From a virus, in the IMG/VR virus record IMGVR_UViG_3300044977_000009, positions 1 through 23,056 of that record: 23,056 nt of DNA; one strand, 5' to 3'. The notes beneath the pieces were generated by a model. The model was not told the DNA's origin. It made no database searches and was given only the letters and a program-made list of their open reading frames with translations. The position numbers were made by a program, and so were the translations under genes. Positions 7,673 to 23,019 of the stretch are shown here, piece by piece; position 1 is the stretch's first letter, and every line of letters starts with the position of its first letter.

Positions 7673-9490
7673 TTACGTCTGCTGTTGTCCTGCCAGAGCT
7701 GCGAGCAAGGCGCTTCCGCCAGTAGCACCGCCGAGGCCCATCAATGGCTGGCCGCGAAAAGCGCGGCGGCGAACTTCGTCTGTGATTGGCATGTAGGCCG
7801 AGACTGGAAGCATATCCTTGGCGTCAATCGCCGTATCTGGAGAAATATACGAAACCTCCCCAGGCTTCACTTCCACGCCCATTGTCTTGGCATACTTCTT
7901 GAGATAGTTCGGGAGCGTCTTGTCATACCACTGCTGCTGCCCGGAGAGTTTGCCGCCCGTGATTGCCTGCGCTTGCTCTCCCGTGTTGAGCGTGATCGCG
8001 TCGTAGCCGTTATCGGCAGCGTAGCGGATCATGCGCTTCAAGGCGAGTTCGTGAGAGGAGTCCTTGAAGGGGAGGTCGGGAACCACGTCTCCAGGCTTCG
8101 AGGTTGTTTGCAACTCGTGGATTCTTGCTTCCAGAGAAGCGTGAGCAGTAATATCGGTCTCGGGAGTCCTGTTGCTCTCCGCGAGAAGCTGCATCAATTC
8201 ATTGTCCTTGGCGTAGATTTCATTCGCCTTGGGAGTACCTTCGTAGGCCCCCTTCTTCCCTTGTTGGTGCAAGTCGCTCTGAACTTCCTCGATGTGCAGG
8301 ATTCTCTCTCCGTTCGCTCCTGTGCGGTCATTGAAGCGGACGTGGACCACGGGATTCTCAACTCCTGGCCAATGCTCGGTTTCGTAGGATGGTTGTTTTC
8401 TTGGATAATTAGCTGCGCTTTCACGATTAAACAAGTCCTGATACCTTGCCCTTTCATCTGGGCTTAGCGTTCCTATTCTTTTGTCAGCATTTTTCATCCA
8501 TGCCATTTCTTCTGATGTCAAAGATGGAGGTGACTTTCTCGGCATGGTCATGATGAGTTCGTGGTGATTCTCCCCGCCCGGAGTGTTGCGGTCCATGTAC
8601 TGCACACGCTTGAATTCCTGATCGGCGGGAACGTCACCGTGCATCACTTCCTCGACTTTGATCTGGTTCTGCCGGAAGTGGTTCAGCAACTCATCCTTCG
8701 TCACGGTATCGCCAGGCTTCTTTGATTCGAGGAGATCACCAAGAGTGTGCTGGAGTTCTTCCGAGGAGAAGCCTTCCTTCGCTACCTTTTGCAAGCGGTT
8801 TTCCAGGGCTGGAACGCCGATAGGTTTGTTGCCCAATCGCTCAATGGCGCGCTCAAGTCGGGAGTAGAAAGGGGCCTGAACGCGCTCCGCGGTTGGGACA
8901 GCTTGCTCCAACTGCGCAGGGGGGGTGCGCAGTTGAGCGGCTTCTGCGATTGGCTTCGCTTCCTGCGCGATCGGCTCTGCAAGTTTAGCCACGGGTATAG
9001 CTGATTCCGCAGCCTTTGCCGTGGATAGGGCCTCGCCGCCAGCCAAAGCGCCCTTTGCCCCTCGCCACGCTTGCCCGAGGCCCGCGAACGTAAGCGGATC
9101 TGTTAAAACGCCTGCGGCCATGTTAGGAAGGAAGTCTTCCGTTCCCGTCAAATCAGACACCGATGGAGCGTTGAACTCAGGACGCCCGGAAGCCTCTCCA
9201 GCCCCGTACAGCGCCCCTCCAAGAGCCGAGCCAGCCAATACCCCAAGTGGGCCACCCACGAGGCCTCCCAGAGCGCCACCGGCGATTCCTGGGATCATCC
9301 CGATTAGATCGGAGGCGTTCCCTGATTGCATGGCCCGGAAAGGAGATGCGACGGTGTTATACAACGCCTTGCGAGGGTAATCCAACGGAGCAAGAACATC
9401 ACCCCATCCCATCCCGTGAAGCGCAGCCCCACCTCCGATGGTTGCTCCACCGATCCCGAGGGCCTTCAAAAGCTCGCTTCCGGTTGACAT
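7673..9490 (-). CDS. Large polyvalent virion protein, 605 aa
   Basis: Residues 60-100 are a Gly/Ala-rich hydrophobic stretch (MIPGIAGGALGGLVGGPLGV) that could insert in a membrane. Residues 150-300 are helical and charged. The C-terminal part holds HVRFNDRT (383-390), ILHIEEVQSDLHQQGKK (397-413), VPDLPFKDSSHELALKRMIR (470-489) and WYDKTLPNYLKKYAKTMG (521-538). I recognise this set as a domain of large polyvalent phage proteins, usually found near portal and tail genes, whose activity is not known to me. The hydrophobic N-terminus suggests an internal virion protein delivered during entry. Neither a membrane channel nor an enzyme role can be shown from sequence. It starts six bases after the upstream stop. 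Confidence 0.8.
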   Translation of the reverse strand: MSTGSELLKALGIGGATIGGGAALHGMGWGDVLAPLDYPRKALYNTVASPFRAMQSGNASDLIGMIPGIAGGALGGLVGGPLGVLAGSALGGALYGAGEASGRPEFNAPSVSDLTGTEDFLPNMAAGVLTDPLTFAGLGQAWRGAKGALAGGEALSTAKAAESAIPVAKLAEPIAQEAKPIAEAAQLRTPPAQLEQAVPTAERVQAPFYSRLERAIERLGNKPIGVPALENRLQKVAKEGFSSEELQHTLGDLLESKKPGDTVTKDELLNHFRQNQIKVEEVMHGDVPADQEFKRVQYMDRNTPGGENHHELIMTMPRKSPPSLTSEEMAWMKNADKRIGTLSPDERARYQDLFNRESAANYPRKQPSYETEHWPGVENPVVHVRFNDRTGANGERILHIEEVQSDLHQQGKKGAYEGTPKANEIYAKDNELMQLLAESNRTPETDITAHASLEARIHELQTTSKPGDVVPDLPFKDSSHELALKRMIRYAADNGYDAITLNTGEQAQAITGGKLSGQQQWYDKTLPNYLKKYAKTMGVEVKPGEVSYISPDTAIDAKDMLPVSAYMPITDEVRRRAFRGQPLMGLGGATGGSALLAALAGQQQT

Positions 9491-16014: not shown

Positions 16015-16806
16015 TTATCCTTTCATTATTTCAGAGAAAATGTCAGCCAACGCTTCGTCGGCGTCGTCGGGGATCAGTTCAAGGAAGCGAGTAAGCGCCT
16101 GGGCCTTCCTCATGTGGTCAGTGATCTTCAGGCGGATGACATGACGAAAGCCTGCCGTGGCCTGGCGTGTCGGCTCAGGAATTTCCTTCGCTTCGTAGAA
16201 TCGAGAAACAGGCTCCGTTGGCTGATTTCGCAGTCCGTACTTTTCCGGCACATCGTAAAGAGAAGTGCTGACCGCTTCCTTTGGTGGAACCGCCATTGAT
16301 TGCGTCGAAACATGCTTCCCATTACGCTCAACCTTCGCGGCATTCACCTGCTCGACCATCTCGTCGAGAGTTGCCGCTGCTGAAGTGCTGGCAGGGTGGT
16401 TACCTGCGATCTTGCGATTCGCCCACAAGATCATCGCATCCTCAGACGCCTTGGCATCTGCGGTTCCGCTCTCTGAGTGCAGGAGGTTAGAGAAGTGCCT
16501 TCCGACTGCTTCCCATGCTATCTTGTCGGCGTCCGGAAGATTTGCGAAGAATGTGTGGTCACCGGTGGATTGCTGAAGCGTGATCGCCAGAGCTTTGGAG
16601 TTCATCGGTGCTTCCGCGGCAATGGCTTCGTCGATCATCCGAATTGCCGTGCAAGCCATAACGAAGAACGGCTCTTGGCTCTCGTTCCATTGCTTCGCAG
16701 ATGCGGCCCCGCACCTCACGAAGACACTGTGGCCGGTCTTGGCCAACTCTTCTGCGCTCAGGCCGTTCTTCGATTTACCGTGGTTGGTCTGCTCGTGCGG
16801 AACCAT
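16015..16806 (-). CDS. Unknown phage protein, 263 aa
   Basis: The frame opens at ATG 16806 (MVPHEQTNHGKSKNGLSAEE) and overlaps the terminase stop by 32 bases. It is predicted largely helical (AIRMIDEAIAAEAPMNSKAL, DADKIAWEAVGRHFSNLLHS). A low-complexity middle (ASTSAAATLDEMVEQVNAAK) precedes a C-terminal helical segment (HMRKAQALTRFLELIPDDAD). No catalytic or DNA-binding motif is seen. A role in head assembly is possible from its place between terminase and portal. I do not recognise a family. Confidence 0.65.
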   Translation of the reverse strand: MVPHEQTNHGKSKNGLSAEELAKTGHSVFVRCGAASAKQWNESQEPFFVMACTAIRMIDEAIAAEAPMNSKALAITLQQSTGDHTFFANLPDADKIAWEAVGRHFSNLLHSESGTADAKASEDAMILWANRKIAGNHPASTSAAATLDEMVEQVNAAKVERNGKHVSTQSMAVPPKEAVSTSLYDVPEKYGLRNQPTEPVSRFYEAKEIPEPTRQATAGFRHVIRLKITDHMRKAQALTRFLELIPDDADEALADIFSEIMKG

Positions 16807-18391
16807 CGCCAGGCCCCATCATGTAAGAGTTTCCGCTCTTTTTCGCTTCCTTCGCCTTTTGCTCAATGTACCACTTATACGCCCCAGATGCCACTACTTG
16901 AGCGGCCTTGGCGGGAATCCACTGCGGCCTGTGCTGCGCCAGGTAGCGAAGCGCGTCGATGGTGTGGTTATTTTTCGCGTCTGGAGTGTCGATGAAAGTC
17001 CCGTCTGGTTTCTTCTTGTAACGGTAGTGCTTGATCTCCTTGATGAAGTTGAAGCAGCTCTTCATCACCAGGAGTTTTGGCGTGCCGTTCGACCTGATGC
17101 GCAGCCACAACCGAATCTCTTCCAGGGATGGACGAATGGCCCCAGGACTTCCGTCGCTCAGAAGGAAATCGCTCCCGGTGATCTCGCTCTTGATCTTGTT
17201 CGCTTCCAGGGCGTCGGCATAGTGCCAGCCGATTGTCTTCCCGTCGCCGGCCGACTTCTTCTTGTACTCGTGGACATCGATCAAGAATGCCCGGAAGTTT
17301 CTTCCTTGGCATTTCTGCTTCATCTCAAGGCCGTACCGGGTGGCATCGCAGCATTTCAGATAAAGCTCATCGTAGATATAGATGTGGTCTTCTTTCTCCG
17401 GGGGAGGTATCGCTAGGAATAGGACTGCGGCAACCTGCCTTCCTGGGTCCGTCGCGCAATAGAGGGTCCAGTCGTTCGGGATTGGGAACGGGTCTATCTC
17501 GTGGACTTTCGGGGCGTACTCTGGGAACACGCGCCCGGCGACAAGGGCAAACTCACCCTTCACGCGAACATCGTAGGAGATGTCGTCTCCGAGCAGCTTC
17601 CCCTTGAATGCTTCCTTGGCCTCCTCATTAACATGCTTGTTGTCGTCCATCGTGCAGAAGAACTCCTCGACTGTGCGAGGAGTCACGTTCTTCTCGATTT
17701 GCTCAAGGGCCCTCTCGTGGAGAGCGTACAGCCTCTCGGAGCCGGCCTGGGGTGTAGCTGACCAGATGAAGATTCCGTCTCGGTCCAGGAGGCGGGCAGC
17801 GATTTCGATGTACCAATCCCTGTCCGCGTCGGCCTCTTCGTCGAACCACGCACCGTCAATATCCGCTCCACGGGCCGGGGAAGCGTTCGACGAGTAGAAG
17901 TGGATCTTCGTCCCGTTGATGAGCGTGACGATCTTTGGCAAGTCCTCCTTTTTGCTCTCGTAAGCGATGTCCTTTATCATTCGCCTCGGGATTAATGGAA
18001 GCGACGGCCTCTTGTCCTTGGATCGGTGCGCGTCCGTGTCAGGATCGTAGGCGCGCCATCGCTTATTTACTTCATCGCGGATCATGCAGAAGGCACCTGG
18101 GCGACCGAGCTTCTTCCACAAGACCTGAGCAAGCTCCCTTCCGTCCTTCCCGACCACGTACCAGACTTGATTCTTTTTCGACGTGACGGCGCGCGCTACC
18201 TCAACAGCCGCGGCAACCGTCTTCCCGGCTCGGTTGCCGCCACGGATGATCCTCTCAAGAGTCTTGCTGTTGTGGAAAGCTGTCTGGTACGGGAGGGGAT
18301 TGTAGATTTGCAGGGCCTCGGCCTTGCGAATGGCGATCTCGGCAAGGACTCTCTTGAGTTGCCGGGCCGCCTCTTTAGATGCCGTCGCCAT
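16775..18391 (-). CDS. terL: Terminase large subunit
   Basis: The 538-residue protein has the terminase ATPase-nuclease order. Walker A is GGNRAGKT at residues 51-58, Walker B ends in IDGAWFDEEA (178-187) and the coupling motif is SATPQ (211-215). The nuclease half begins with YCATDPGRQVAAVLF (catalytic-type Asp 315), continues with YDELYL (340-345) and FLIDVHEY (369-376), and ends with the typical NHTIDALRYL (475-484, Asp 479). It pumps DNA into the prohead through the portal and cuts concatemers. The start ATG 18391 overlaps the upstream gene by 17 bases. Length and motifs are complete, with no sign of decay. Confidence in the family is high, and the packaging strategy (cos, pac or other) is not deducible here. 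Confidence 0.96.
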   Translation of the reverse strand: MATASKEAARQLKRVLAEIAIRKAEALQIYNPLPYQTAFHNSKTLERIIRGGNRAGKTVAAAVEVARAVTSKKNQVWYVVGKDGRELAQVLWKKLGRPGAFCMIRDEVNKRWRAYDPDTDAHRSKDKRPSLPLIPRRMIKDIAYESKKEDLPKIVTLINGTKIHFYSSNASPARGADIDGAWFDEEADADRDWYIEIAARLLDRDGIFIWSATPQAGSERLYALHERALEQIEKNVTPRTVEEFFCTMDDNKHVNEEAKEAFKGKLLGDDISYDVRVKGEFALVAGRVFPEYAPKVHEIDPFPIPNDWTLYCATDPGRQVAAVLFLAIPPPEKEDHIYIYDELYLKCCDATRYGLEMKQKCQGRNFRAFLIDVHEYKKKSAGDGKTIGWHYADALEANKIKSEITGSDFLLSDGSPGAIRPSLEEIRLWLRIRSNGTPKLLVMKSCFNFIKEIKHYRYKKKPDGTFIDTPDAKNNHTIDALRYLAQHRPQWIPAKAAQVVASGAYKWYIEQKAKEAKKSGNSYMMGPGDGSARADQPR

Positions 18392-18776
18392 CTGAGCATT
18401 CCCTCCACGTGAGAAGCGACATTTTCATCCTGCCGACCAACCTTGACGCGCTCTCCATGAGATCATCGTCGGTCATCGCTCCAAGGTCTCCATCAACCTG
18501 GCTGCTAGATACGTCCTTGATAAGCCGGAAGCCAATGTCGAACAGGCGCGCCCGTGAAGCACTCCCGGCCTTGGCCGTTCTGAGATCCCTGATGAGCATC
18601 TTGGCGAATCCTGACGGGCCTCCAACGATTCGCATGAAGTGATCGGCGATCTCCCTGATGTCAACGGAGTCCTTCTTGTTCTTGATGACCTCTGCGTAGA
18701 TCTCCGCAACAGTCGAGCCTTGCTTCTCCTTCTTGGCTGCGGCCTGCCTTGCCTTGGGTGTCTTTACGGCAGCCAT
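18375..18776 (-). CDS. Candidate terminase small subunit
   Basis: This 133-residue protein begins with a Lys/Ala-rich, probably DNA-contacting tail (MAAVKTPKARQAAAKKEKQG), followed by helices (TVAEIYAEVIKNKKDSVDIR, ADHFMRIVGGPSGFAKMLI, RARLFDIGFRLIKDVSS) and an acidic end. It lies immediately upstream of the large terminase and overlaps it by 17 bases, the usual place of the DNA-recognition subunit. I see no clear helix-turn-helix signature, so the call rests on position, size and basic N-terminus. Its own start lies inside the last codons of the small membrane protein upstream. Confidence 0.5.
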   Translation of the reverse strand: MAAVKTPKARQAAAKKEKQGSTVAEIYAEVIKNKKDSVDIREIADHFMRIVGGPSGFAKMLIRDLRTAKAGSASRARLFDIGFRLIKDVSSSQVDGDLGAMTDDDLMESASRLVGRMKMSLLTWRECSDGDGI

Positions 18777-18895
18777 TCGTCATCCTCCTCGAAATGCTCG
18801 CGGCTCTGCGCTTCATTCTGCTGAAGCCAGATAAACCGGCACACCATGGCGCCGATGAAGAACCCGAACCAGAACATGATAACCACTTCCATCAT
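18764..18895 (-). CDS. 43-residue single-span membrane protein
   Basis: The start overlaps the stop of the upstream gene in CCATGATGG, and the 3' end overlaps the candidate small terminase by 13 bases. The protein has a hydrophobic helix at residues 3-24 (EVVIMFWFGFFIGAMVCRFI) and a charged acidic tail (EAQSREHFEEDDEWLP). This is the layout of many small phage membrane proteins, including some holin or spanin components, but nothing more specific can be read. Overlaps on both ends with real genes support translation. Confidence 0.6.
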   Translation of the reverse strand: MMEVVIMFWFGFFIGAMVCRFIWLQQNEAQSREHFEEDDEWLP

Positions 18896-19323
18896 GGAAA
18901 CTCCACGGTTCCTTCGGCGTAAACGGCCTCTGCCTGGAACTCCCCGATGCCGATCCAGGAAGTCTTGGCTGCTGGAAGCCTCAAGGCTATCGTGCCGATA
19001 CCACGCGAGGCTATCGCCACCGTTCCCGTCGTCAAGATCGGCTGGGCGGTTCCGTTCAGGACAGGCTCGGGAGGAAGAAGCCAGACTATCTCACCGCTCC
19101 CGTCATCAAACATCCCTGTTCCTGTGCATGCCGACACTTTCTGATCCGGGAAGATGCCAAGGACTGACGTCGGCGGGATGACGCACTCAGAACACCGCTT
19201 GATCGTCCCGTCAGGGAACTCGACCTCGACCTCGCATGGCTCGCGCGCTGTCTCAAACTTGCCAAAGCCGATCCGGTAGACTGGCATCGGCGGGCAGAAG
19301 ACGCGGATAATGGCTGTCGTCAT
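18892..19323 (-). CDS. Beta-rich protein with internal 20-aa repeat, 143 aa
   Basis: The preferred start is ATG 19321-19323. A TTG at 19359 would run through the terminator hairpin. There is no good Shine-Dalgarno before the ATG. The protein is beta-rich with five cysteines (FCPP, EPCEV, KRCSEC, SACTG) and contains two related 20-residue units: IGFGKFETAREPCEVEVEFP at 18-37 and IGIGEFQAEAVYAEGTVEFP at 124-143. No signal peptide is evident. It is the first gene after the terminator and leads the packaging block, coupled to the next ORF by a stop/start overlap. Function unknown. Confidence 0.65.
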   Translation of the reverse strand: MTTAIIRVFCPPMPVYRIGFGKFETAREPCEVEVEFPDGTIKRCSECVIPPTSVLGIFPDQKVSACTGTGMFDDGSGEIVWLLPPEPVLNGTAQPILTTGTVAIASRGIGTIALRLPAAKTSWIGIGEFQAEAVYAEGTVEFP

Positions 19324-19332
19324 AAATGGCCC

Positions 19333-19374
19333 AAAAGAAAACCGTCCGGCCGCTGGCAAGGACGACCGGACGGC
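19333..19374 (-). terminator. Intrinsic transcription terminator
   Basis: On the minus strand, CCGTCCGG (19373-19366) pairs perfectly with CCGGACGG (19349-19342) across a 16-base loop, extended by one G-U pair. TTTTCTTTT (19341-19333) follows. This is a textbook Rho-independent terminator for transcription arriving from the envelope block. It lies 23 bases beyond the TAG stop of the 78-residue gene and ends 10 bases before the ATG of the next gene. Confidence 0.88.
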
Positions 19375-19396: not shown

Positions 19397-19633
19397 CTAT
19401 TTCTTTTGATCGCATGCGGCAGGCGCTTGGCACGCGCCTGCGCTTTGCCGGATCACCGTGACGGTTGTCGTTGAATACGTCATGGTCGCCGATCCACACG
19501 AAGACGCGCCACGCCCATTGAGTGGATGGAGTAACTTATGGACGAGTGCCTTGATGCGTCCTTTGCCGCATGCGGCTTCCGTGGAGCCGACTATGCAGAG
19601 AAACATCGAGAAAACGAGAATTAGCCTGAGCAT
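19397..19633 (-). CDS. Small secreted Cys-containing protein, 78 aa
   Basis: ATG 19633 has an excellent AAAGGAAG ribosome site. Residues 1-21 are a classical signal peptide (MLRLILVFSMFLCIVGSTEA, then A) with a plausible cleavage after SxxA. The mature part is small and basic (GKGRIKALVHKLLHPLNGRG), followed by a Thr/Ser stretch (CGSATMTYSTTTVTVIR) and four cysteines that could make two disulfides outside the cytoplasm. I know no family. Such short secreted proteins are common in Planctomycetes, which is part of the host guess. It is the last gene before the terminator. Confidence 0.75.
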   Translation of the reverse strand: MLRLILVFSMFLCIVGSTEAACGKGRIKALVHKLLHPLNGRGASSCGSATMTYSTTTVTVIRQSAGACQAPAACDQKK

Positions 19634-19636
19634 AGA

Positions 19637-19954
19637 TCACTTCCTTTTGAAGATCGGGAAACAGGTCCAAAGTTCTGCGCCATCCATCTCTTTGCTGTTC
19701 ATGTACTTCACGTACGACTTGGCGTATTCCTCCGCTGTCATTTCTTCCTTGTATTCCGGCATGTCCTTCAAATGAGTCGAAGGCTTCCATTTTAAACGAC
19801 CATCAACGAACATCAAGTGCTCTGGAAATCCACCGTGCGGCTTGCGGACAATCAACCAGAAGACCTCTTCGTACAGAGGTTGTTGGATTGATAATCCAGC
19901 GAGAGGAATCAGAGCAAGAGGCTTGCCAGCTTTTAGGAATTCACGCCTGTTCAT
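19637..19954 (-). CDS. Protein with Tat-like signal, 105 aa, unknown
   Basis: ATG 19952-19954 overlaps the upstream TGA as ATGA. The N-terminus MNRREFLKAGKPLALIPLAG matches the twin-arginine consensus (RRxFLK) followed by a modest hydrophobic stretch. No clear Ala-x-Ala cleavage site follows, so it may stay anchored or the match may be coincidental. The rest contains EEVFWLIVRKPHGGFPEHLM, LKWKPSTHLKDMPEYKEEM and ends AELWTCFPIFKRK. No cofactor site is visible that would explain Tat export of a folded protein. Function unknown. Confidence 0.68.
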   Translation of the reverse strand: MNRREFLKAGKPLALIPLAGLSIQQPLYEEVFWLIVRKPHGGFPEHLMFVDGRLKWKPSTHLKDMPEYKEEMTAEEYAKSYVKYMNSKEMDGAELWTCFPIFKRK

Positions 19955-20328
19955 TTTTCCTTCTTCCTGGCTTCGAACATCTCAAGCACAACAGCCTGAA
20001 TCGCCGCTACCCTGGCATTGTATGCCGTTACCTTTGCCGTGAACTCCGTTGCGAGTCCGGCGTTGATGACGTCCTGCCCTGGATTGTACGTGTACGTCGG
20101 CATTGATTGGCCCCACGGTCCAGCGCTCGAATACCCTGTTACCTCCATTTGACCTCCAGGATCGAACGCTGGAGGCTCGGGAAGTGGACCAATCGCCTGT
20201 AGCATGGACGACAGAAGTTCTTCCGGCCTGTTGCTCCACAACTTTATGACCGTCCCATCGGGAAGAGGAATCTCCCCGACAGGAGGCGTTGTGTGCGGGC
20301 CATTGATGATCGTGAAGTCGTCGGCCAT
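19951..20328 (-). CDS. Unknown protein, 125 aa
   Basis: The ATG at 20326-20328 follows GAGGA closely, and the GTG three bases upstream is less well placed. The product starts MADDFTIINGPHTTPPVGEI, includes LPDGTVIKLWSNRPEELLSS and GYSSAGPWGQSMPTYTYNPG, and ends in a long helix (LATEFTAKVTAYNARVAAIQ). No signal peptide or membrane helix is seen, unlike its neighbours. It is coupled to the Tat-like gene by an ATGA overlap. No family is recognised. Confidence 0.65.
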   Translation of the reverse strand: MADDFTIINGPHTTPPVGEIPLPDGTVIKLWSNRPEELLSSMLQAIGPLPEPPAFDPGGQMEVTGYSSAGPWGQSMPTYTYNPGQDVINAGLATEFTAKVTAYNARVAAIQAVVLEMFEARKKEK

Positions 20329-20335
20329 CACTTCC

Positions 20336-20698
20336 TCACGCGCTTTGGACCATCATCGCCGTGGCGTCCGCGATGGACGCCTTCTTTCCCGAGGCGAGCA
20401 TGGAAAGGTAGATAGGCTTGCCCATTGAGTGGAACATCACAGGATCGTCCATCTGTGTCCGGATCGTCCGGAGAAGATACCACTTCTCGGCAACGCTTGG
20501 GTTGTTCAGTTTCAGCAGCAAGTCTTCCGGCTTTCCGATGGGGACGCACGCCGAGAGCATCGGCAGAAGATTGGTCAGAAGCTGCTCGATGAACGCGATG
20601 AACGGGCCAGGCGTGGTCATCAGGTCGGCAGGCGCGCCGTTGGCCAATAGCGTCCCAGCTATTTCGGTCGCCTTGATGGTGAATATCGAAGAAGACAT
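20336..20698 (-). CDS. Unknown protein, 120 aa
   Basis: ATG 20698 has AAGGA six bases upstream. The protein is helical: FTIKATEIAGTLLANGAPAD, PFIAFIEQLLTNLLPMLSAC, then VAEKWYLLRTIRTQMDDPVM and a C-terminal ASIADATAMMVQSA. The segment around residues 33-50 is hydrophobic but contains polar residues and is not a clear membrane span. It lies between the protease and the 125-residue gene, and no function can be assigned. Confidence 0.65.
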   Translation of the reverse strand: MSSSIFTIKATEIAGTLLANGAPADLMTTPGPFIAFIEQLLTNLLPMLSACVPIGKPEDLLLKLNNPSVAEKWYLLRTIRTQMDDPVMFHSMGKPIYLSMLASGKKASIADATAMMVQSA

Positions 20699-20713
20699 TA
20701 GTTTTCCTTTTGG

Positions 20714-21886
20714 TTATCGTGATGTCGGAGAAAGTAGTTTGTACAGGTCCATGACCTTTGCCGTGGTCCCGGCCGGCACAACTTCCGTTGTTCCTGTCGG
20801 GGCAAGCTGGTAAGTCCCAGCCGGAAGGCTTGCGGAGATTGATATTGTCGGGAAATTCGTCGGCACAGGTGGCAGTGGCGGAACCGGTGGAACAGGCGGC
20901 ACTGGAGGAACAGGAGGGGTTGGCGGGTCCGGTGGAGTTGGAGGTGTAGGAGGGGCTGTTCCTGCCGTGATCCAGATTGCCTCGGTCCCGAACGAGTCAG
21001 CGCCATACTTGATCCAGAACGATCCGTCTCCGTTGATGCCCCAAGTTCCCCATTGATTCAGACCCAAGAAGGCACCCTTGCTGCCATCTCCATTGTCGTG
21101 GTTGTCATCCCAGCCGATGCAAAGAACAGCGTGGTCAACGCCAGTCCCATTTCCTGTCATCGTTCCGTTGGTGTAGTTGTCGCACTCAGAGGCGTCGAAG
21201 GCTACCGAGATCGGGCCAAACTGCACCATGCAGTTCTTGATGTCCTGGGTCGCCGCCACCCCGCTCTCTTGCGCTGGAGTGCAATAGCCCCAGTTGCCGA
21301 CCTTGTAAATCTTCATGCCCGATAGGTCTTTGCACCTGCCAGCAGATGCCGTGTAAGGCCCGTAGGCCGATGCGAGAGGAAGGCCAGCCGTGCGGATATA
21401 CTCGATGACTTGGGCTTCATCTCCTCCATCGCACCCGCCTTGATAGCCACCGCAGTCCAGGCCGCATTGGGTCGATAGCCTGTCGGTGATCTGGATTATT
21501 CCCGCCTTGGCCAGAGCCATCGAAGCCCCGTCCGACGTGGACACACCAAAGCAGTCCCCGCATGATCCTTGATCGTCAGTCGGGAGAACAACGAAGCCTG
21601 GGGCCGTTCGGCAGTTGAAGGCTACGGGAGTGGCCTTTGGAAGCAGCTTGACGCGATGCCGGTTGCGAGCGAAAGCTTCAGCGTGTAGCTTGTCGCGCAC
21701 TTCCTTTGGCGCTGGCTTGTGGCCCCTGTGGTGCTTGCGAATCCTGGCAGGGTCTTTTGGGTCATCGAAGACAAGCTTCGCCTCTTGGCGAGATTCGGCA
21801 TAATCAGGCGCGAACACGGTTCCAAGGAACCACGCCAAAGCCGACACCATGAGCGCTGGTATCCAGTTGTCCCTTACATACTTCAT
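20714..21886 (-). CDS. Papain-family (C1A) cysteine protease, membrane-anchored
   Basis: This 390-residue protein has AAAGGA seven bases before its ATG. Residues 7-27 (NWIPALMVSALAWFLGTVFA) form a signal anchor, so the protease acts outside the cytoplasmic membrane. The catalytic domain spans about 85-308. DQGSCGDCFG at 105-114 supplies oxyanion Gln 106 and nucleophile Cys 112. GCDGGD at 151-156 matches the GCNGG motif of C1A enzymes. His 252 lies in VDHAVLCIGW and Asn 277 in LNQWGTWGINGDG. All key residues are present. A Pro-rich linker (TPPTPPDPPTPPVPPVPP, 313-343) and a small beta tail (345-390) follow. Family members hydrolyse peptide bonds. Substrates could be host envelope proteins or virion parts. 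Confidence 0.93.
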   Translation of the reverse strand: MKYVRDNWIPALMVSALAWFLGTVFAPDYAESRQEAKLVFDDPKDPARIRKHHRGHKPAPKEVRDKLHAEAFARNRHRVKLLPKATPVAFNCRTAPGFVVLPTDDQGSCGDCFGVSTSDGASMALAKAGIIQITDRLSTQCGLDCGGYQGGCDGGDEAQVIEYIRTAGLPLASAYGPYTASAGRCKDLSGMKIYKVGNWGYCTPAQESGVAATQDIKNCMVQFGPISVAFDASECDNYTNGTMTGNGTGVDHAVLCIGWDDNHDNGDGSKGAFLGLNQWGTWGINGDGSFWIKYGADSFGTEAIWITAGTAPPTPPTPPDPPTPPVPPVPPVPPVPPLPPVPTNFPTISISASLPAGTYQLAPTGTTEVVPAGTTAKVMDLYKLLSPTSR

Positions 21887-21913
21887 CTATCAGTCCTTTC
21901 GAAATTGTGTATT

Positions 21914-22906
21914 TTACCTACCGAACATTCTATTGCCTGATCGCTCCAAGTCGCCAAATTCGTCGGAGAGAACGGTATCGCCGCCAGGCACCAGGCCAGT
22001 GGCGTACCCTCCCGTGCCGGCTTCTGCGTGACATGACGCACATTGGTGACTCTTCAAAGGAACGTACCCAAGCGGCCTCTGCTCGGGATCGCGGAAAGCC
22101 ACGTACCTCTCCCACGTCCCGTCTTCGTTCTTCTCGGCGATCCGATGCTCGAAGACCTTCCCTGTCTCCGTGTTACTCAGGATATCCATAAACACAGTTC
22201 CGGTAGGATACCTACGAACGTGGCCTCTGTTGTTCTGGAAGCTTGACCCATTCCAAACTGCGATGTTCGCGATTCCCTGGACGCCACCTTCAGGAATGTA
22301 CCTTCTCAGATCGCTCTTCCATCCGGTCAATCCTACCAACCCTCCGGGAACCTGCCACTTCGCTTCGAGTTGGGATCGTGGAACCGGCGTGATCGAATCT
22401 CTATTATCGGTCACGGCGATTCTCTGGGTATATCGCGCCGGCCTATACCTTCGAATGCCCTTCATGAACGTAATTGACTCAGGCCACGGACCCGCGGCAT
22501 CTTGGTCATCGTCAGCAGCTTCCGCTTGCCTGCCGGATGGCACGAAAGGGGTCGCCGCACGGCTCACCTGCCTTTGTCTCATCAAATTGATCGTCTCGCC
22601 GATCTTTGCGTTGTCAGCGTCCGGCCCAAGACGACGGCCGGCCTGAAGCCAACCCGCCCCATCAGGGATGTAGACCATGATTGACGGCCTTCCTTGGACC
22701 TCCGGGACGTTCTCGCGGTAGGAGGTGATGACTCCGATGATCGCTCTCGCCTTGCAGTCACAGAAGACGACGAGAGGCTTCTTCTGATCGACCGCCGACT
22801 GGCAAATGTCTTGGTACGATCCCCACTTCGGAGCCATATTGGAGTAGTCCGGCTGCGCGTAGGCCACGGAAGCAAGAAGGAGCATGAGCGTGATTGATGT
22901 TTTCAT
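21914..22906 (-). CDS. Exported single-haem c-type cytochrome-like protein
   Basis: The start at ATG 22906 gives a clean signal peptide (MKTSITLMLLLASVAYAQ). ATG 22918 adds four residues. Residues 27-105 look like a thioredoxin-like fold (WGSYQDICQSAVDQKKPLVV, then FCDCKA and MVYIPDGAGW) lacking a CxxC active site, followed by an acidic linker (125-140). The last 100 residues hold TGTVFMDILSNTETGKVFEH, WERYVAFRDP, then CASCH at 289-293, the covalent haem-c site. Met 327 is the nearest candidate second ligand. The haem domain is C-terminal and short. Homologues that I recall are exported planctomycete cytochromes. It needs the host haem-attachment machinery outside the membrane. Electron partner unknown. 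Confidence 0.82.
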   Translation of the reverse strand: MKTSITLMLLLASVAYAQPDYSNMAPKWGSYQDICQSAVDQKKPLVVFCDCKARAIIGVITSYRENVPEVQGRPSIMVYIPDGAGWLQAGRRLGPDADNAKIGETINLMRQRQVSRAATPFVPSGRQAEAADDDQDAAGPWPESITFMKGIRRYRPARYTQRIAVTDNRDSITPVPRSQLEAKWQVPGGLVGLTGWKSDLRRYIPEGGVQGIANIAVWNGSSFQNNRGHVRRYPTGTVFMDILSNTETGKVFEHRIAEKNEDGTWERYVAFRDPEQRPLGYVPLKSHQCASCHAEAGTGGYATGLVPGGDTVLSDEFGDLERSGNRMFGR

Positions 22907-23019
22907 TGCCTGAACCATTTCACGATCTTGTCTATGGAGTCAACGATAAACCAAACCATGCCGAATGACATGAAGGCGATGAACGTTAGGCTGACGGTAA
23001 CGTAGAAAGGATCATCCAT
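22903..23019 (-). CDS. 38-residue single-span membrane peptide
   Basis: ATG 23017-23019 opens MDDPFYVTVSLTFIAFMSFG, followed by MVWFIVDSIDKIVKWFRQ. The hydrophobic helix covers residues 6-27, with an amphipathic basic end. The stop overlaps the ATG of the cytochrome gene as ATGA, suggesting coupled translation. The Shine-Dalgarno is weak. It could help export or anchor the cytochrome, or be a holin-like peptide, and neither can be shown. Confidence 0.6.
   Translation of the reverse strand: MDDPFYVTVSLTFIAFMSFGMVWFIVDSIDKIVKWFRQ

Follow-up and report, generated by a model that had tools for sequence, protein, structure and literature searches.

Why does a tailed phage carry a compact run of genes for exported and membrane proteins, including a haem c protein and a papain-like protease? 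The question is raised by positions 19397–23019 of the IMG/VR virus record IMGVR_UViG_3300044977_000009, a linear virus fragment of 23,056 bases that was analysed in its entirety and is referred to here as the window. The initial annotation described this stretch as seven consecutive co-directional genes, and all seven open reading frames (ORFs) are indeed present on the minus strand at 19397–23019, with junctions of −16 to +27 bp. The block is transcribed from the end of the contig toward the terminase genes and is closed by a terminator; the case for its co-transcription consists of the common strand and the tight packing of the genes. In our analysis the observation itself is confirmed and the overall interpretation placed on it is partly supported: the block is best read as a cell-envelope module, the core parts of which recur in other phages.

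The 390-residue product of the third gene (20714–21886, minus strand) is, by sequence, clearly a C1A papain-family peptidase. It matches PF00112 with an E-value of 1e-25 (91.5 bits against a curated cut-off of 20.7), its relatives in the Protein Data Bank (PDB) are papains and cathepsins, and the catalytic tetrad is intact (Gln106, Cys112, His252, Asn277). The protein has an N-terminal signal or anchor, a Pro-rich linker and a C-terminal tail. A profile seeded from this protein, from a second viral contig (L002) and from a phage-like fragment in a metagenome-assembled genome (MAG) labelled Actinobacteria (L003) detected homologues in the viral contigs L087 and L088, which are near-identical, L090, L091 and L092, and weaker ones in L093 and L094. 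In the tree, the proteins from the window, L002, L003, L087, L090, L091 and L092 form a single clade apart from the cellular homologues (SH-aLRT 99, quick method); L093 falls outside this clade, as does L094, on a long branch. Scored with the phage C1A profile, cellular proteins reach at most 152 bits compared to 406–511 bits for the phage members, which were part of the training set. Thus, the phage proteins share with peptidase family C1A (papain, cathepsins; PF00112) the sequence family and the Gln-Cys-His-Asn tetrad, which is invariant across six phage members, but they form a clade of their own, reside in phage cassettes and, in one lineage, are fused to a haem-c domain. Another difference from the family is found in L092 (6804–8642), where an intein containing a LAGLIDADG-like domain interrupts the protease immediately before the catalytic Cys (junctions CGS/CHSENTEV and LISSN/CWDFSG); Pfam Peptidase_C1 matches this ORF across two stretches (5e-31) and LAGLIDADG_3 matches with 3e-4.

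The protease gene is preceded by that of a 334-residue protein (21914–22918, minus strand) with a signal peptide, an N-terminal domain and a C-terminal haem-c domain that carries a single haem motif, CASCH, from residue 293. Export and membrane signals, here and throughout, were judged by reading of the sequence and by hydropathy. This protein has no significant relative in Pfam, PHROG or PDB, and single-sequence searches of viral contigs, genome contigs and phage records with the haem-c protein returned nothing; matches were obtained by profile only. The profile built from the window and L087 proteins detected homologues in L095 (47% identity) and L098 (35%), and L087/L088 again, and CxxCH is invariant, near the C-terminus, in all four members. 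Altogether, members of the phage C1A clade occur in six further phages or phage-like fragments, and the haem-c domain occurs in three. A thioredoxin-like N-terminal domain, suspected from the VVFCDC motif, found no support.

The haem-c and C1A domains are linked twice. In the window, they are encoded by separate neighbouring genes 27 bp apart, whereas in the L087/L088 lineage (two records), the C1A domain is followed by the haem-c domain within one open frame, in the order opposite to that in the window (phmmer 2e-32 for the haem-c part and 2.5e-66 for the C1A part). The likely start of the fusion in L087 is GTG at 7938, behind AAGGAG, and by reading the product has a clear signal peptide. The two records comprise 97,311 and 46,739 bases, and their cassettes are almost the same; since the longer record has roughly double the length of the shorter, it may be a concatemer or a second genome of the same phage. 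No C1A gene adjoins the haem-c gene in L095 or L098. Papain-like ORFs in the cassettes of these two contigs (L095:7394–8359 and L098:6551–7564) display Cys, His and Asn motifs by eye, but profiles did not confirm homology and we did not retain them; the L095 ORF ends in VLDWFV, similar to the LDWAQL, IDWAP and LNWIP tails of signal-less C1A proteins. Among the profiles and the literature, we found no match for a haem-c domain beside or fused to a papain protease in phages.

The genomes that carry these genes otherwise have little in common with the window. Of the 28 proteins encoded in the window, only three, namely the haem-c protein, the C1A protease and o126 (19951–20331, minus strand), have relatives in six full contigs, L091 and L003 at a threshold of E 1e-3, and the terminase and the portal protein of the window had no match in the related phages. 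The related contigs also share few other proteins, with three common to L090 and L098 and one common to L002 and L098. Because the packaging genes are unrelated to those of the window at this sensitivity, the block moves between phages as a module and, judged from these comparisons, is a real exchanged module of otherwise unrelated tailed phages. We take as established the genes themselves, the catalytic residues, the recurrence, the linkage, the fusion, the phage-only clade and the exchange between unrelated phages. The neighbourhood comparison proposed in the initial annotation thus shows neither a one-off insertion nor an assembly join. As a separate observation, L003 (1–6991), a contig filed in the GTDB MAG Actinobacteria BOG, has the appearance of a phage fragment that carries a C1A cassette of its own; in composition, it agrees with that MAG less closely (0.58–0.69) than the MAG's pieces agree with one another (0.80–0.89).

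The remaining genes of the block are small. The first, g38 (22903–23019, minus strand), encodes a 38-residue peptide with a single membrane span by hydropathy; it has no significant match to Pfam or PHROG families, and its likeness to holins and antiholins is one of size only. Similarity of o120, a hypothetical protein (20336–20698, minus strand), to other small cassette ORFs is marginal, and we dropped this candidate homology as too weak. The C1A cassette of L092 encodes a homologue of the conserved cassette protein o126 (45% identity, E 4e-30), and a separate scan for it returned the L092 contig only; a truncated look-alike, recognised by eye, lies at the cut end of L090. The Tat call for tat105 (19637–19954, minus strand) comes from its twin-arginine-like start, MNRREFLK, read by eye, and the protein has no homologue in the related phage contigs compared. 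Finally, cys78 (19397–19633, minus strand) is a small protein with five Cys residues and a predicted signal peptide; it weakly matches L098 (E 0.009), and the related cassettes encode secreted Cys-rich proteins of similar appearance.

The initial annotation counted an export or membrane signal in five of the seven genes. The enrichment holds under a crude N-terminal hydrophobicity rule, which is passed by four of the seven cassette genes against three of the remaining 21 genes of the window (Fisher p 0.043); the Tat-like protein fails this rule and keeps its motif only. The same tendency is seen across seven cassettes, where an N-terminal hydrophobic segment is present in 26 of 64 called genes compared to 9 of 100 outside (p 2e-6, with the cassette boundaries drawn after the genes had been seen). 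The related cassettes contain small proteins with one or two membrane spans, coiled-coil proteins and secreted Cys-rich proteins, and exported proteins with Pro-rich linkers are common to those of L090, L092, L095 and L003. Two of the small membrane proteins, found in L098 and L003, weakly match PHROG holins (5e-4 and 0.03). In the L087/L088 contigs, a class 3 lipase is encoded just downstream of the fusion (L087:10633–11319; Pfam Lipase_3 E 2e-21, PHROG esterase/lipase 1e-14).

Within the envelope-module reading, we tentatively favour a late envelope-attack, or lysis, cassette in which a protease occupies the place that an endolysin has in other phages, an interpretation to which we give somewhat less than an even chance. 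Several features lead us to this choice. The position is lambda-like, next to the packaging genes in the window and after tail genes elsewhere; the membrane peptides adjoin a hydrolase, joined in one case by a lipase; the protease occurs in signal-bearing and signal-less forms, much as some endolysins are exported and others depend on a holin; and the families listed include no strong canonical peptidoglycan hydrolase. Specifically, neither Pfam nor PHROG detected a peptidoglycan hydrolase domain in the block, and there is no strong canonical one among the Pfam families listed for the window or for the six related contigs (in two lists, 25 of 36 and 25 of 34). The resemblance to the lambda-type holin-endolysin-spanin cassette lies in this position by packaging or after tail genes and in the small membrane proteins beside a hydrolase; the block differs in having a papain-like protease as its hydrolase, with no canonical endolysin found, and in its additional exported haem-c and Cys-rich proteins. 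The lipase of L087 also recalls the mycobacteriophage LysA/LysB type of multi-enzyme lysis (PMC6116114), in which additional hydrolases, including a lipolytic enzyme, serve against an unusual envelope; in contrast, we see no peptidoglycan hydrolase here and, instead, a protease and a haem-c protein.

Under the lysis reading, the core of the module would be the phage-specific C1A protease acting together with the exported single-haem c-type protein. At the end of infection, the small membrane proteins would open or weaken the inner membrane; the protease would be exported beforehand in some phages, and in others its signal-less forms would be released by the membrane proteins. It would then cut envelope or wall proteins, taking over the job of a peptidoglycan hydrolase. 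The haem-c partner probably would gate or protect the active-site thiol, or sense the envelope's redox or gas state. In this scheme, the steps that we infer are export, late timing, the substrate, lysis and the role of the haem.

A more specific version of the lysis reading, which we consider rather doubtful, is that these phages infect a protein-walled, non-peptidoglycan host and lyse it with the papain-like protease, checked or protected by its haem-c partner, the module being exchanged between unrelated genomes. A similar idea has been put forward for S-layer archaea, where lysis is hypothesised to combine a holin that opens the membrane with proteolysis of the protein wall, by enzymes that a review gives as unknown (PMC4456609); compared to that proposal, the present module offers a concrete candidate, and in tailed phages. 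The logic of protein-wall lysis would fit hosts with protein-rich walls such as Gemmataceae, in which peptidoglycan genes have been reported to be mostly absent and Cys-rich YTV proteins to occur in the wall (PMC8567305; see also PMC10632474). The appearance of the secreted proteins had suggested a planctomycete host, and the tests of this candidate came out empty or neutral. The haem-c domain and the exported Ig-like protein were each found in none of 392 Planctomycetota genomes, in searches run without a positive control; the cellular C1A proteins of Planctomycetota are not part of the phage clade, Planctomycetes were not favoured as the host by tetranucleotide signatures, and no report of a phage P460 or of a papain protease in planctomycete phages was found in the literature.

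Several observations weigh against the lysis reading. The C1A gene of L002 lies between the portal and scaffold/coat genes, and that of L091 (7980–8990) adjoins a gene read as a UvsX-like recombinase and DNA-metabolism genes, with no envelope cassette (this phage is AT-rich, with 36% G+C). By reading, the C1A proteins of the window, L002 and L087 have N-terminal signals, whereas four of the seven phage members (L003, L090, L091 and L092) have no signal peptide; the membrane anchor claimed for the protease in the initial annotation thus stands for the window but not as a general feature. All contigs are fragments or of uncertain completeness, such that an endolysin of an unfamiliar type could be missed. 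Least certain of all is what the haem does; the role proposed for it amounts to a guess, as the fusion indicates only that the haem-c domain works with the protease.

The main rival to the lysis reading is surface conversion or exclusion, whereby the block would be a moron-like cassette of exported proteins, expressed early or by a prophage, that alter the surface of the host and keep out other phages or change host fitness. We consider this distinctly possible, though unlikely on balance. The exported and Cys-rich secreted proteins would suit such a role, as would the delimitation of the block by a terminator and its position between modules, where morons also sit; moreover, the related contig L098 (phage G401) belongs to a set that holds an integrase. 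However, no promoter of the moron type was found for the block, the upstream end of which is cut off, and promoter-like sites occur at chance level; exclusion proteins are not usually hydrolases with intact catalytic residues; and most of the cassettes come after tail genes. The association with the packaging genes noted in the initial annotation holds in the window, where the block lies upstream of the terminase, but the cassettes of the relatives are not tied to terL: in L087, L092, L095 and L098, they follow tail, baseplate or fibre-like genes.

This adjacency to tail or structural genes, together with the signal-less members, is also what would be expected of an entry protease, packaged in the virion or associated with the tail, that cuts surface proteins at entry while the other proteins aid penetration. 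The N-terminal signals of the other three members argue against this possibility, and secreted haem-c and Cys-rich partners do not suit a virion part, so that we regard it as improbable.

Still less probable, in our assessment, is an auxiliary metabolic module in which the haem-c protein would handle NO, hydroxylamine or electrons for the host, with the protease as a loosely linked companion. This possibility draws on the conserved CxxCH and on weak fold matches. In two AlphaFold models of low to moderate confidence (pLDDT 47 and 64), one led by the window protein and the other by the L095 protein, the haem-c domain is mainly all-beta and terminates in the CxxCH helix. Foldseek returned no significant match for either model; a second-look aligner placed cytochrome c'-beta (7s5o) on top for both, with Z of 4.4 and 4.5, where values below 8 may reflect merely a common arrangement, and the P460 entries 9hrk, 6hiu and 8gar and the c'-beta entry 6hih also ranked high for the first model. 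The likeness to the cytochrome c'-beta/P460 family (PF16694) thus lies in the predicted all-beta domain that ends in a CxxCH helix, and the linkage of the phage domain to a protease sets it apart. In sequence comparisons, the L095 protein scored E 0.052 and 14.4 bits against PF16694, below the cut-off of 27, the window protein had no match to this family, and the real P460 profile scored no better than shuffles that retained CxxCH. Since no sequence tie to P460 extends beyond this motif, we did not file the domain there; it appears to represent a haem-c family new to the libraries searched, with a possible P460-like fold suggested by the models. The fusion of the haem-c domain to the protease in L087/L088 and the lack of any other metabolic gene in the block also speak against a metabolic function.

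The location of the L002 gene between portal and scaffold/coat could point to a maturation protease that processes head or tail proteins, but three members have export signals, and the haem-c domain to which the protease is fused in one lineage has to mature outside the cytoplasm, so that this is very improbable. A host insertion or an assembly artefact, suggested by the commonness of C1A proteases in bacteria, can be practically dismissed given the phage-only clade, the repeated linkage and fusion, the overlapping gene junctions, and a base composition that shows no clear break and in which the block as a whole does not stand out from the rest of the window.

Beyond the block, the window is that of a tailed phage with a recognisable terminase and mostly uncharacterised proteins. 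Because the contig is cut just beyond g38, the block may continue upstream. At its downstream end, the intrinsic terminator (19374–19341, minus strand), a 13-bp stem followed by a T-run, is the strongest in the region and looks real. The listed TTG start (19359) of the next ORF, 18892–19359, falls within this terminator, and ATG at 19323 (143 amino acids) is the likelier start. The terminase large subunit (16775–18391, minus strand; PHROG_2 E 1e-27, Pfam Terminase_6N 8e-14) and o133 (18375–18776, minus strand), a possible small terminase subunit by its position before TerL only and with no significant match to Pfam or PHROG families, both lie outside the cassette. The 605-residue protein encoded at 7673–9490 matches a PHROG labelled endolysin (4e-13) over only 144 of 2564 profile columns, and no Pfam family was found for it; it is probably a large polyvalent-type protein and not an endolysin. 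A small DUF2158-like protein at 1088–1336 (E 9e-7 to DUF2158) resembles L095:11783–12010 (E 9e-4), possibly a further shared gene outside the cassette.

The roles offered in the initial annotation, namely superinfection exclusion, support of host respiration and protein-directed lysis, remain matters of inference. Whatever its role, the block is a phage module that moves between genomes and combines exported haem and protease parts. If the lysis reading is true, it would show how tailed phages get out of bacteria in which peptidoglycan is not the basis of the envelope, a problem already raised with regard to protein-walled cells (PMC4456609), and would provide a defined enzyme for this step.

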